A stretch of DNA of 64,000 nt from Trueperaceae bacterium (GCA_002707365.1 PAMQ01000017.1:62001-126000), one strand, 5' to 3'; shown: positions 21,859 through 26,687, counted from the stretch's first letter. Made by a program: numbers and translations. Notes: generated by a model not told the origin, from the sequence alone.

Positions 21859-22404
21859 CTATTGTTTTTCTTCTGGACGCCGATTGGTAAAAACAACAAC
21901 TGCAGTAACAATTAGAGCGACAATTGTTGGTATTCCAACTAGCCAAATAAGCCAGGTTGAGATGGTGCGAGAGGAAGTTGCAGTTGGTGGGAAGACAAAG
22001 GTAATAGGTTCGATTGGTTCTCCAGTACCAATTGTTAATTCTAGGGTAGCGCTTGCCTCCTCCTGTCTAAAAGTTTGGTCTCGCAGAAGCAAAGAGTAAA
22101 CTCCAGGGCTAGTGAAGGTTAATGCCCCAAGATAGATTCCAGGTACTTCGTTTTCGAAAAGTTCAATAGCGATTGTGTCATTAGAAACGGATGATGTTAA
22201 TTCTGCTTTTAGGATGGCATCTTCTATTGGTACGAGGATAGGATCCGTCATGATTACAGTTAAGCGGACCTTTTCATTCAGCACCGGGGGGTTTGGGTCT
22301 ACAGTAACGTTACCCAGCACCAGAGTGGCGTGGGCAGAAGCAAATTGGGCAGCTAAACCAAAAAAAATAACCATAAGTAAGGTTGCGAGCGATATTGTCC
22401 TCAT
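21859..22404 (-). CDS. Exported FixH/YtkA-like protein with C-terminal membrane anchor
   Basis: About 181 aa. Residues 1-24 are a signal peptide ending ASA, so the mature protein would begin with His (HATLVLG), then a beta-rich domain with the spacing of YtkA/FixH or CopC-like folds, a Pro/Thr/Ser linker and a C-terminal membrane segment (STWLIWLVGIPTIVALIVT) followed by a charged tail. Function is not known; FixH-like proteins serve cytochrome oxidase assembly or copper handling. The frame extends to GTG 22431, but the ATG at 22404 overlaps the upstream stop as ATGA and has AAAGGG upstream, so it is preferred. Confidence 0.6.
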   Translation of the reverse strand: MRTISLATLLMVIFFGLAAQFASAHATLVLGNVTVDPNPPVLNEKVRLTVIMTDPILVPIEDAILKAELTSSVSNDTIAIELFENEVPGIYLGALTFTSPGVYSLLLRDQTFRQEEASATLELTIGTGEPIEPITFVFPPTATSSRTISTWLIWLVGIPTIVALIVTAVVVFTNRRPEEKQ

Positions 22405-23078
22405 TGCACATCCCTTTCTTCCCACAACCAAGATCTTAACGATTGGTTACTTTCAATAAACTGTTTTGCAACGTCCCGACCTAGGTAACGATAGTGCCAT
22501 GGTTCGTACATATAGCAGGTTTCTTTTTCCTGACCCTGGTTGTAACTCATGACGAAGCCAAAGCGCCAACTGTTGTTAGTCAACCAAGATCCTTCTGGCG
22601 TCATACTCCAATCTGGCACATCCCAAGGAGCTGGGCCTCCAGCAGCACGAAAGTCTATGGTGGTTCCTAGTTGGTGTTCGGAATGACCAGCCCTTGCGCT
22701 TGACCGTAGTGCGGATTCTTCGCCTTCCAGGCTAACCCAGTAATCGAAGGTGTTCGCCTGGTATTGATAACTTCGATAGGCTGACTGGACTTCTAATGGG
22801 CTCCCAGCCACCTTTGCAGCTTCTAATAGGGCTACTAAATCATCTACGACGAGGCGTCGAACAAAGTGATTGCCTGGCAAACCAATGTCTGACAATGGTG
22901 TCAGATCAATGGGTACGTAGTCAACTGAAAGTGAGTAAATTGTGTCTAATAATGTCGATTGCCATGCATCGTATGTAGCGTGGGTAGCTGGTAAGTCGTC
23001 ATAACGACATTCTGGTAACGAGATTTGGTTATGTTGGTTGCCTAGCACTAACAAGGCTGTAATTACGATTAGGAACAC
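22401..23078 (-). CDS. D-alanyl-D-alanine carboxypeptidase, VanY (M15B) type
   Basis: Zinc peptidase trimming D-Ala from peptidoglycan stems (225 aa). Zinc ligands are H135 and D142 in SEHQLGTTIDF and H195 in EPWHYRY, with E192 as the catalytic base; the substrate motif AYRSYQYQ is at about 100-107. The N-terminus has a short hydrophobic stretch consistent with an exported or anchored protein, followed by a Cys at 24. The start is GTG at 23078, 9 bp after an in-frame stop, so little extension is possible. Its stop overlaps the next gene by 4 bp, so the two are translationally coupled, pairing a wall enzyme with a FixH/YtkA-like protein. Confidence 0.9.
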   Translation of the reverse strand: MFLIVITALLVLGNQHNQISLPECRYDDLPATHATYDAWQSTLLDTIYSLSVDYVPIDLTPLSDIGLPGNHFVRRLVVDDLVALLEAAKVAGSPLEVQSAYRSYQYQANTFDYWVSLEGEESALRSSARAGHSEHQLGTTIDFRAAGGPAPWDVPDWSMTPEGSWLTNNSWRFGFVMSYNQGQEKETCYMYEPWHYRYLGRDVAKQFIESNQSLRSWLWEERDVQ

Positions 23079-23361: not shown

Positions 23362-24906
23362 TTAGAAGCTTGGGCCTAAGACGGTCCCACGCATCTCCAT
23401 TGGTTGTCCTAGAATTAGGAGTGCTAGAGCCCCGAAGCTAAGGACAAAAATCAACATTGGCCACATCGCTATAACGCCCCGACTACCAAAGTCCCTCAAT
23501 GCTATCCAGATGGTTACTAAGATTGCCAACATCGTATAAATAGTGGTTATTGAGGCTGTTATTGGGAAGAGCCAGGCGGTCGGCACAATTTGAGCGAGCC
23601 GCCAATTAGGGTCTACAGCGAAACCACGGTATTCCAAGAAGTGCTGAAATACCGGGATCGTTGATAAAGCACCGGTTAAGAAATGGAAAAGGTAATGGGA
23701 GCTCCAAAAGCCCACGCCAAGAACTAAGGTTACGTACCCCCATCGTTGAAGCGACCGCGAGAGATTAAACCCAGCACCCCCGATAAGATCAGCGGTCATA
23801 GCTGTTAAACCCGTTATTAAAAGCCCTATGGCCGTTACGAGTAGGAAAATAGTTCCAAGTAAAGTCAGCTCATTTTTCAAGGCGAAAATACCTGCAATGC
23901 TTTGCGCAACATCAAAGAATGGCCCGGTCATAGCAACAGCATTTAGGAGGCCCCAGTGAGCTAGTAGGATAGCGAAAATAGTAAGAGCTAGTCGCCCGCG
24001 CCGTAACCATGGGGCGGCTACTAGCTCCCACCAAGGTGGCCTAACGCTCAACGCAACGTTATCGTATGGACAGGCTCGGACGCAGTTAAAGCAACTTGTG
24101 CAATCCATGTTCGATTGGAGAGTTGGAACAAATAAATCAGTTTCACAACCAGGAAAGTAACCTTTCCCATTAGGATTCTTGATTTCATCTAGCGGGATGA
24201 AGGCAGCTACTTCTGAATTACCCTTTTTGATGTCCGTGACGCGCCCGTGAAGGCAGGGTTTGTGAACGCACTCACGACATACGTTATGGTCAATGGCAGT
24301 AATCATTGTTGGTGAAGAACTAGAAAGAACGAAATTGAAATTACCTAAAGGACACACGAAACGACAAAAAGTGCCGGCTGGAAATAGTGAGTCAACTACT
24401 AATGCTGATCCAAAGTAGCCCAAAGCCAACCAGGCTGTTAGCCACGGGCTAGCCCACAGGTCGAAATACTCGTAACTAAACAGGTAAACGAGAGTAAGTA
24501 CCCCAACAAGCCACTTGTTTTGGAGTGCACGAGGCCAATTAAAGCTTGGTAGGATCTTCATCAATTTTTTCGTTGCTCCGCGAGTAAGCATTAAAGGGCA
24601 CGCTGCGCAGAAGGCGTTGCCAAATATAGCAAGGGCTAAAACTAGAAGGCCGCGATATTGCAGCCAAACTGTTGTGGTGGCAATGTTTCGTGGAGCTAGC
24701 TGCCTTCCAGTTAGTCCATCAATAATCACGAAAGCTGCAAGAATCAGTAGGGGCAACTGGAAGGCTAAACGAGAGTATTTCCAGCGAACTATGTCACGTA
24801 AGCCAGGGATCCGAAATAGGTCTTTTCCCACTGGTTGGCGGGTAATTGGTCCCGCACTCGGGAGCAGCATATTCTCGTCTTGTTGGGAATGGTTCGAGGG
24901 AAGCAT
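23362..24906 (-). CDS. Membrane polyferredoxin of the CcoG/NapH/NosR type
   Basis: A 514-aa integral membrane iron-sulfur protein with several transmembrane helices before and after a ferredoxin region. Cysteine motifs in order are FCAACP, FCRFVCP, CRECVHKPC and DCTSCFNCVRACP, the last a standard 4Fe-4S ligand set. CcoG, NapH and NosR share this design and move electrons across or at the membrane; CcoG is known to reduce Cu(II) during oxidase assembly. There is no adjacent oxidase, nitrate reductase or nosZ gene. It lies 10 bp after the His-rich exported protein gene, so the two are one transcript, and metal reduction is a reasonable but unproven role. Confidence 0.8.
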   Translation of the reverse strand: MLPSNHSQQDENMLLPSAGPITRQPVGKDLFRIPGLRDIVRWKYSRLAFQLPLLILAAFVIIDGLTGRQLAPRNIATTTVWLQYRGLLVLALAIFGNAFCAACPLMLTRGATKKLMKILPSFNWPRALQNKWLVGVLTLVYLFSYEYFDLWASPWLTAWLALGYFGSALVVDSLFPAGTFCRFVCPLGNFNFVLSSSSPTMITAIDHNVCRECVHKPCLHGRVTDIKKGNSEVAAFIPLDEIKNPNGKGYFPGCETDLFVPTLQSNMDCTSCFNCVRACPYDNVALSVRPPWWELVAAPWLRRGRLALTIFAILLAHWGLLNAVAMTGPFFDVAQSIAGIFALKNELTLLGTIFLLVTAIGLLITGLTAMTADLIGGAGFNLSRSLQRWGYVTLVLGVGFWSSHYLFHFLTGALSTIPVFQHFLEYRGFAVDPNWRLAQIVPTAWLFPITASITTIYTMLAILVTIWIALRDFGSRGVIAMWPMLIFVLSFGALALLILGQPMEMRGTVLGPSF

Positions 24907-24916
24907 GGTTCAGACT

Positions 24917-25837
24917 CTATTCATCCAATACCATAGTCGAGAACTCGATTACCTCTTCGTTGCTACCAAGAATATGAAGAAGGACGTCCCACTCGCCAGC
25001 CATAGCGAAGTTTAGTTTTACCCGATTCACCATAGCTCCTAACGTACCTTTGGTAGCTTCGTTAAGGTCCTGTAAATGATCATGGATTAAGGTCAGATTA
25101 TCTCCATCGGTGCTATGTTGCATTCCCGGCATGCTCCGCTGAACTTTCATTCCGGAGTGTACGGGTTTTTCCTCTCTGAAGACAAATGCTAGGGCCTCTG
25201 TCTGACCACCATTGGTAAGGCTTGGTGCTGGTAGGAAAGCAGTAAACACTTGTGTCGCTTTTTCGCTAATGAGGCTACTAGCATTAAACGCTATACTGGC
25301 CTCTTCATTTCCATACTTTAAAACAACCCGCCAAGTTCCTTGGTGGAACTCTTCGGCACCAGTGAACCAAGGAACTACAATCCCGGAAAATCTCTGATGG
25401 TCGTCTTCCGAATCATGGTGATGATGTTCATGTCCATCATCCTCCTGAGTCGCGTGGTGTTCTTCAATTGCTGGTTTTCCGTGGAGTAGGACTGTAGTCT
25501 CGGCAATGTCTTGGTTGGGATTTATTAACTGTACCTTTAGGCTAGAGTCTTCCTTGATGCCGTTAATTAACAGCACGAGATTACCAATATAGGTTTTTTC
25601 TGCGGGGATCACGACTGGGTATGTATGGACCTCTAATGTCCCAAGGTTAAGCATGTTAAGCGGTCCTTCTGGCATGCTAGTTAGACTAGAGGACTCGTGT
25701 TGGTGTCCCTCTCCATGATCATGATGATGCTCTTCTTTATGGCCATCGTGCTGGGCAAGGCCGAGACTGTAGGTAGTTACTAGCACTGCAACTATCCATT
25801 TGAAGAGCTGGCGGGCATTGAGGAAAATTATCTTCAT
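24917..25837 (-). CDS. Histidine-rich exported protein with YtkA-like C-terminal domain
   Basis: About 306 aa with a signal peptide (cut near residue 28, LGLAQ). The mature N-terminus is a histidine cluster (HDGHKEEHHHDHGEGHQH), and a second His/Asp/Glu cluster lies near residues 130-155. The C-terminal part contains SMPGMQHS followed by FAMAGEWDVLLHI, a pattern of YtkA/FixH-like domains. The clusters strongly suggest binding of Cu, Zn or Ni in the periplasm. GGAGATC precedes the ATG. The gene is followed by the polyferredoxin after 10 bp. I do not recognise a named family for the full-length protein. Confidence 0.6.
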   Translation of the reverse strand: MKIIFLNARQLFKWIVAVLVTTYSLGLAQHDGHKEEHHHDHGEGHQHESSSLTSMPEGPLNMLNLGTLEVHTYPVVIPAEKTYIGNLVLLINGIKEDSSLKVQLINPNQDIAETTVLLHGKPAIEEHHATQEDDGHEHHHHDSEDDHQRFSGIVVPWFTGAEEFHQGTWRVVLKYGNEEASIAFNASSLISEKATQVFTAFLPAPSLTNGGQTEALAFVFREEKPVHSGMKVQRSMPGMQHSTDGDNLTLIHDHLQDLNEATKGTLGAMVNRVKLNFAMAGEWDVLLHILGSNEEVIEFSTMVLDE

Positions 25838-25968
25838 AATGATCTCCTAGAATTTGCACATCGTTAGTTCTGCACGACGTGTTTATTGTAGTAACTAAGG
25901 CATTTCAGTGAACGAATTATTGTTGAGCCTAGCACCCAATATGGGTTTAGGGACCCATGAAGAGAGCG

Positions 25969-26292
25969 TCAAACAATGGGCGTTCGAAGTGATAGGCATG
26001 GGGGTGCTCGACTCCGGCTACCCTGAAATCTTATTCGAAAGGGTTTGGGGGTAGAAGAGGCTTGACGTGGAATAAGTAGAGGAGGAGGGAATACCCATAC
26101 GGTAGGGTTATCGGCCTCCACTGCCAACCAACTATCAGAGAAATAATGAACATGAAAACCGGCCTGATCAGAATGTACGTGGCCAACGTCTGAATGATCA
26201 CCATTAGAGGAAGCTCCTTGGGCGACAATCAGCAAAGCAGCAAAATACGTTTTTGTCCCTATCCGAAAGGCCTGTTGCCAACGCTTCGGCAT
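25969..26292 (-). CDS. Small exported protein with histidine motif, unknown function
   Basis: A 107-aa protein with an N-terminal signal-like segment (TYFAALLIVAQGASS) and a short region rich in His and Asp (GDHSDVGHVHSDQAGFHVHYF). The C-terminus is Pro/Arg/Ser-rich and could be poorly folded or the product of a frameshift near the end. Its ATG overlaps the stop of the upstream lipoprotein gene as TAATG, good evidence that it is translated with that gene. A 131-bp gap separates it from the His-rich exported protein. The His pattern matches the metal theme of its neighbours, but I recognise no family. Confidence 0.5.
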   Translation of the reverse strand: MPKRWQQAFRIGTKTYFAALLIVAQGASSNGDHSDVGHVHSDQAGFHVHYFSDSWLAVEADNPTVWVFPPPLLIPRQASSTPKPFRIRFQGSRSRAPPCLSLRTPIV

Positions 26293-26687
26293 TACTTGCT
26301 CCCTGGAACAGCGATTTTTAAGGTACCTTGAGCCTTATCACCGTCCATGAGTTCGATTTCAGCAGTTATTACCCAATCTCCTGCCATAGTGAACTCAAAC
26401 GTATCGGCGCGATATTGGCCTGTTAGGATTTTCTTTGCTGTTCGGATAACGGGGATCATTCCGGCATGTGTCATATCGCCCGTTATTTTTACTGCAGCTG
26501 CGTCAGTTGGAGCGTTGTCTTTGTAAACCTTAACTATCATTGGAGTGATACCTAGGGTAGGTTCCGAGGCGGGCTGGATTATTACATCCACCTTTGAATT
26601 GGAGGAGGTAGACCCACTTCTATCTTTTGGTGGCTGACACGACGTTAGGATGATACAAATGAGAAAGACCCATGCATATGAACGCAT
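26292..26687 (-). CDS. FixH/YtkA-like lipoprotein
   Basis: A 131-aa lipoprotein: signal peptide with lipobox LTSC, lipidated Cys at 17, then a Ser-rich linker and a single beta-sandwich domain. GDMTHAGMIP with Met/His residues and the end FTMAGDWVITAEIEL are typical of YtkA-like domains, which are thought to help copper or oxidase assembly. It opens a minus-strand set (lipoprotein, small His protein, His-rich protein, polyferredoxin). The start ATG at 26687 has no strong ribosome site; TAAACT stands 10 bp upstream. Confidence 0.7.
   Translation of the reverse strand: MRSYAWVFLICIILTSCQPPKDRSGSTSSNSKVDVIIQPASEPTLGITPMIVKVYKDNAPTDAAAVKITGDMTHAGMIPVIRTAKKILTGQYRADTFEFTMAGDWVITAEIELMDGDKAQGTLKIAVPGSK

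Follow-up and report, generated by a model that had tools for sequence, protein, structure and literature searches.

We found that a 64,000-nucleotide stretch from a Trueperaceae bacterium (GCA_002707365.1, PAMQ01000017.1:62001-126000; termed the window) carries a minus-strand locus that probably encodes an envelope module for the supply and reduction of copper, which would serve heme-copper oxidases while being encoded apart from them and would be governed by a histidine-based metal-sensing leader. Judging by context and homology, the metal is very probably copper. Four minus-strand open reading frames (ORFs) with operon-like spacing are present, named here in transcription order YTKA (26292-26687, 131 aa), SML (25969-26292, 107 aa), HIS (24917-25837, 306 aa) and POLY (23362-24906, 514 aa). 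YTKA is a YtkA/CtaK-type lipoprotein, SML a predicted arrest-peptide leader ending near the motif RAPP, HIS an exported His-rich protein, and POLY a membrane iron-sulfur (Fe-S) protein with nine predicted transmembrane (TM) helices. The YTKA stop overlaps the SML start (TAATG), and 10 nt separate HIS from POLY. An earlier note on this DNA had located these four genes correctly and overlooked a fifth, YTK2 (21859-22404, minus strand), coding for an exported beta-sandwich protein with a C-terminal TM helix. This gene sits downstream of POLY, beyond a VanY carboxypeptidase gene, and is conserved equally with POLY and YTKA.

The conservation of the locus was examined in POLY loci taken from about 40 relatives, which were mapped by profile search, and in a presence/absence profile of 111 genomes of the order. 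Since longest-ORF calling produced false antisense ORFs in GC-rich relatives, the profiles were run on stop-to-stop frames. Of 41 loci, several of them on cut contigs, 29 have YTKA no more than 6 kb upstream of POLY and 32 have YTK2 no more than 5 kb away, in each case on the strand of POLY. In families other than Trueperaceae the core genes frequently stand next to one another, and no oxidase gene surrounds them. POLY occurred in 52 of the 111 genomes and YTKA in 53, and because of these counts, together with an SML motif spacing that is exact in seven genera, the four are more than ORFs arising by chance. HIS was present in only 6 genomes, which rules out the four genes as a single conserved unit, the form in which the earlier note had proposed them. 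The conserved core is YTKA-POLY-YTK2, and HIS and SML make up an accessory cassette. The note's remark that no oxidase, nitrate reductase or nosZ lies alongside held in both the window and the relatives' loci inspected, where none was recognised.

SML is most likely a metal-sensing leader peptide of the CruR/CutF type, with predicted arrest at RAPP. CruR has a CxxC motif, then 45 residues, then RAPP, which is needed for copper control (PMC9426467), and it stalls ribosomes in vitro (PMC12992588); its relative CutF senses copper outside the cytoplasm (PMC9973294). RAPP is avoided in proteomes, yet occurs close to the C-terminus of small secretory proteins acting as arrest peptides (PMC12992588). 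In the stead of CxxC, SML carries HxH-x6-HxH. The first HxH is encoded at 26173-26181 (minus strand, residues 38-40) and the second at 26146-26154 (minus strand, residues 47-49), near the position of CxxC in DUF2946 leaders, and RAPP at 25999-26010 (minus strand, residues 95-98) lies 9 residues from the C-terminus. SML relatives were found in seven genera (the window, L043/L032, L046/L035, L045, L048, L055 and L089/L085), all with HxH-x6-HxH (or x7), with RAPP 57-58 residues past the start of the first HxH, 48-49 past that of the second, and 1-10 from the C-terminus. The spacers between HxH and RAPP are identical at only 1-6 of 43 positions, one close pair at 25 excepted. When 1.02 Mb of loci were read in six frames, 23 HxHx6HxH motifs appeared, of which 13 had RAPP at the SML distance (expected, 0.015), these 13 cases representing seven distinct places as the loci overlap. 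In a further relative, L042, the first HxH and its distance of 57 to RAPP are preserved, the second HxH is altered and the tail is longer. The exact spacing in the annotated frame also ruled out that SML is a frameshifted gene, an idea raised by its middle reading TM-like in another frame.

HIS, CopC/CopD or POLY follows SML in all SML loci, and classical CxxC-RAPP leaders, with 45-47 residues from CxxC to RAPP, occur in the sister loci L048, L055, L087/L088 and L093. The leader in L055 matches Pfam DUF2946 (PF11162), and neither the window SML nor its L046 relative does. The 131-nt gap between SML and HIS (25838-25968, minus strand) is a candidate regulatory stretch; its predicted RNA fold gave z=-1.5, which is not significant alone. 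In L046, a single example, the predicted fold allows base pairing between the RAPP codons and the HIS Shine-Dalgarno sequence, which a ribosome stalled at RAPP would then be able to free. Scans of the region found no Rfam match, and results for sigma-70 promoters and terminators were close to those of shuffled sequence. As CruR and CutF are opposite in sense, the metal response of SML might be either on or off.

The two conserved exported proteins both resemble copper proteins. YTKA exceeded the Pfam gathering cut-off for YtkA (PF13115, 31.6 bits versus 25.9), and its lipobox Cys, MTHAGM and MxGDW are invariant in 21 relatives, in agreement with the lipoprotein assignment of the earlier note; its Met/His set would suit Cu(I). 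The YTKA profile matched PDB entry 9LL2, described as Helicobacter pylori CrdA, at E=1.5e-7. In an alignment of 21 YTK2 sequences an invariant His directly follows the A-x-A signal-peptidase site, and the beta-sandwich model (predicted local distance difference test score, pLDDT, 90) gave a fold match to CrdA at E=8e-4. An N-terminal His is a feature of CopC, and by analogy YTK2 is a plausible, putative Cu(II) binder. The accessory HIS and SML have no confident Pfam match. GxxH and HxH are conserved in the C-terminal part of HIS, whose F-M-G-W tail weakly resembles YtkA; the YtkA matches of HIS are sub-threshold, and a phmmer search of the PDB with HIS returned only chance-level matches.

Thirty-two relatives of POLY have in common all Fe-S cysteines, H404, H408 and a C-terminal PMxxRG. 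Alignment-averaged hydropathy and charge indicated an N-in/C-out topology with nine TM helices, and by the positive-inside rule all cysteines would be cytoplasmic and H404/H408 and PMEMRG periplasmic. The model had a pLDDT of 80.7. The earlier note had called POLY a CcoG/NapH-type protein; its nature as a membrane Fe-S protein was upheld, and the family assignment was not. POLY has weak ferredoxin and NapH matches only. The CcoG model TIGR02745 matched 1 of the 32 members (E=0.0075), and none of the 111 genomes had a CcoG above the cut-off. For NapH/MauN (TIGR02163), the window POLY scored 25.3 bits against a 213-bit cut-off, the match (E=1e-5) covering residues 89-215, and all 32 members matched weakly. 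By these family tests POLY is neither CcoG nor NapH, although it may work like CcoG.

The neighbourhoods of relatives point to copper, the metal favoured by the earlier note, whose suggestion fits them well. Around POLY in several Trueperaceae we found CopC, CopD, MbnP, MbnH, DUF2946 and further YtkA-like proteins, the families being verified. Outside family f4, 20 genomes have CopD, and in 6 of these the gene is separated from POLY by about 2.4 kb at most. Copies of YTKA occur with CopC, HIS and DUF2946 (L088) and with CopC, MbnP, MbnH and a CxxC-RAPP protein (L093). In L092 (34-2089, genome G045) the neighbours of YTKA are DUF1775/YcnI and a membrane protein resembling ferric reductases, which might partner YtkA as an alternative metal reductase. 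Furthermore, YTKA and the copper chaperone PCuAC were mutually exclusive: PCuAC occurred in 50 of the 111 genomes, together with YTKA in none, and 8 genomes had neither. Neither YTKA nor POLY occurs in any f4 genome, and PCuAC is found in 49 of these 50. The sole PCuAC genome outside f4, G014, has POLY and no YTKA, and its PCuAC adjoins Sco. In Bacillus subtilis the YtkA protein CtaK, which oxidase copper assembly requires when copper is scarce, occupies the place of PCuAC of other bacteria, and YcnJ is a CopC-CopD-YtkA protein (PMC13344008, PMC9145763).

The oxidase content of the genomes bears on what the module would serve. The window genome (2.08 Mb, 97% complete) has one COX2, one CtaD-type COX1 and one Sco, and profile searches found no CopD and no PCuAC in it. 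Most POLY genomes have CuA-type oxidases. Subunit I of a heme-copper oxidase is missing from one genome (G050), and in another (G061) the only subunit I is, in our reading, NorB-like; both are also without COX2, Sco, POLY and YTKA. The four f5 genomes (G040, G044, G048 and G052) each have POLY and YTKA together with a single cbb3-like subunit I, and have no COX2 and no CcoG; the module is thus not specific to CuA, and a CuA-only role was ruled out. The cbb3-like oxidase of f5 is diverged and scores below the ccoN cut-off.

We propose that periplasmic copper would be bound by YTK2, a membrane-anchored candidate Cu(II) binder, and, where present, by HIS, an additional binding protein rich in His and Met. 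POLY would draw electrons on the cytoplasmic side and reduce Cu(II), perhaps at the His/Met site predicted to face the periplasm. Cu(I) would be handed to YTKA, a copper chaperone that would serve Sco and the oxidases instead of PCuAC; the order Cu(II)-YTK2-POLY-Cu(I)-YTKA is one we infer. SML would sense metal via HxH-x6-HxH during its synthesis, stall or be released at RAPP, and thereby set HIS and POLY expression. This role in place of the metal capture that the earlier note ascribed to the small His protein is favoured by the fixed motif spacing across seven genera. More tentatively, and with a probability somewhat short of even, the locus may represent a His-based class of RAPP leader that controls a new membrane Fe-S cupric reductase/chaperone relay (POLY and two YtkA-like proteins), which replaces PCuAC and CcoG in Deinococcota.

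Several results weigh against this proposal. A fold search of the PDB with POLY returned nothing below E=0.4 and no solved relative, and the window POLY has Gln83 (24658-24660, minus strand, in predicted TM2) where nearly all relatives have His. We put the chances that POLY would reduce copper at about even. The exclusivity of YTKA and PCuAC is worth about two independent events, because f4 is one family, with G014 in addition. The genome G037 (97% complete) has an oxidase and Sco, yet is devoid of the module and of PCuAC, and oxidases persist in G011 in the absence of POLY, which indicates that the module is dispensable; the other exception in the profile, G064, is a genome 71% complete. In addition, His-only CutF-like proteins elsewhere adjoin nickel/cobalt genes, and cases beside HupE/UreJ are known (PMC9973294).

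Other explanations of the locus were weighed. POLY could be a diverged CcoG and the YtkA-like proteins diverged FixH, the set serving solely to reduce Cu(II) so that CuB can be inserted into oxidases. POLY is indeed the same kind of protein, a membrane Fe-S protein whose clusters are predicted to be cytoplasmic, and f5 pairs a cbb3 oxidase with POLY in the absence of CcoG; we regard this explanation as unlikely, as the CcoG model barely touched the POLY family and no genome passed its cut-off, and as CuA-type oxidases prevail among POLY genomes and linkage to cbb3 was not seen. The small protein, with its signal-like N-terminus and two HxH motifs, could likewise be an ordinary exported metal-binding protein in which RAPP is incidental. 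This is decidedly unlikely: the distance from HxH to RAPP is constant within one residue despite unrelated spacers, RAPP is terminal in seven genera, and proteomes avoid it except in arrest peptides (PMC12992588).

The metal itself could be another. A module for nickel, cobalt or zinc would accord with the HupE-linked CutF-like proteins mentioned above and with a match of HIS to the zinc protein ZrgA (E=0.0015), which is below the cut-off and falls within the His-rich stretch; we think it improbable, since no Ni/Co/Zn transporter was recognised beside POLY and relatives carry CopC/CopD/MbnP/MbnH at the POLY locus. An iron module akin to FtrABCD would combine a membrane ferredoxin, as in the polyferredoxin FtrD, with periplasmic metal proteins. 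FtrD is the fourth component of that system (PMC11966278), and P19/FetP/FtrA structures were among the weak matches of the YTK2 fold search. CrdA matched better, the neighbours are copper genes and not iron genes, and an Ftr1-type permease (FtrC) was not recognised among the POLY neighbours inspected, no dedicated search having been made for it; this possibility is a very remote one.

Some further features of the relatives were recorded. In most Trueperaceae the VanY-type carboxypeptidase gene (window 22401-23078, minus strand) separates POLY from YTK2; it appears to be a neighbour by synteny and not a member of the module. A natural loss was seen in G011 (L090, 9080-9487), where POLY is gone from its syntenic place and the neighbouring YTKA lacks MTHAGM and still matches Pfam YtkA. 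Two Chloroflexota genomes (L040 and L041, 8001-9464) have a POLY relative with 33-35% identity, which adjoins a calcium/cation exchanger-like gene and has no YtkA neighbours. At its N-terminus the HIS of L046 (5119-6606, G007) is extended by about 200 residues that look mostly helical and contain repeated CRxxI motifs; the extension has no Pfam match and is perhaps a periplasmic metal-stress domain of the Spy/CpxP-like kind.

In POLY, YTKA and YTK2 the locus offers concrete candidates for the supply of reduced copper to oxidases in bacteria without CcoG or PCuAC. It also leads to the prediction that histidines, and not cysteines alone, serve in metal-sensing arrest peptides before copper genes. 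Descriptions of such leaders in the phylum Deinococcota are scarce, a few CruR homologs being mentioned in Deinococcus (PMC9426467), and in a partial coverage of the literature we found no description of this module or of an HxH-RAPP leader in the phylum.

Compared with known systems, SML resembles CruR of Bordetella pertussis and CutF of Rhodobacter capsulatus in being a small exported ORF ahead of copper genes, with a long gap to the next gene and a C-terminal RAPP or Pro-rich motif that follows the metal motif after about 45 residues; it differs in having HxH-x6-HxH for CxxC, in escaping Pfam DUF2946, in following YTKA in the operon and in its Deinococcota host. POLY is like CcoG/FixG with FixH in that a membrane Fe-S protein with cytoplasmic clusters is found near exported YtkA/FixH-like proteins, and unlike CcoG/FixG in failing TIGR02745, in a C-terminal half made up of further TM helices, and in having no oxidase or Cu-ATPase linkage. 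With NapH/MauN it shares the N-terminal TM and Cys pattern, whereas its score is far below the curated cut-off and no Nap or Mau genes accompany it. CrdA of H. pylori is related through the sequence-profile match of YTKA and the fold match of YTK2, while the CrdB/CzcBA efflux genes were not recognised here. The CtaK/YcnJ system of B. subtilis likewise has a YtkA lipoprotein with His/Met residues, and its CopC, CopD and YtkA parts co-occur in the relatives as separate genes, although that system has no POLY or YTK2. Finally, PCuAC, from an unrelated family, has the same proposed job as YTKA, bringing copper to oxidases, and a distribution complementary to it, replacing YTKA in f4 and G014.

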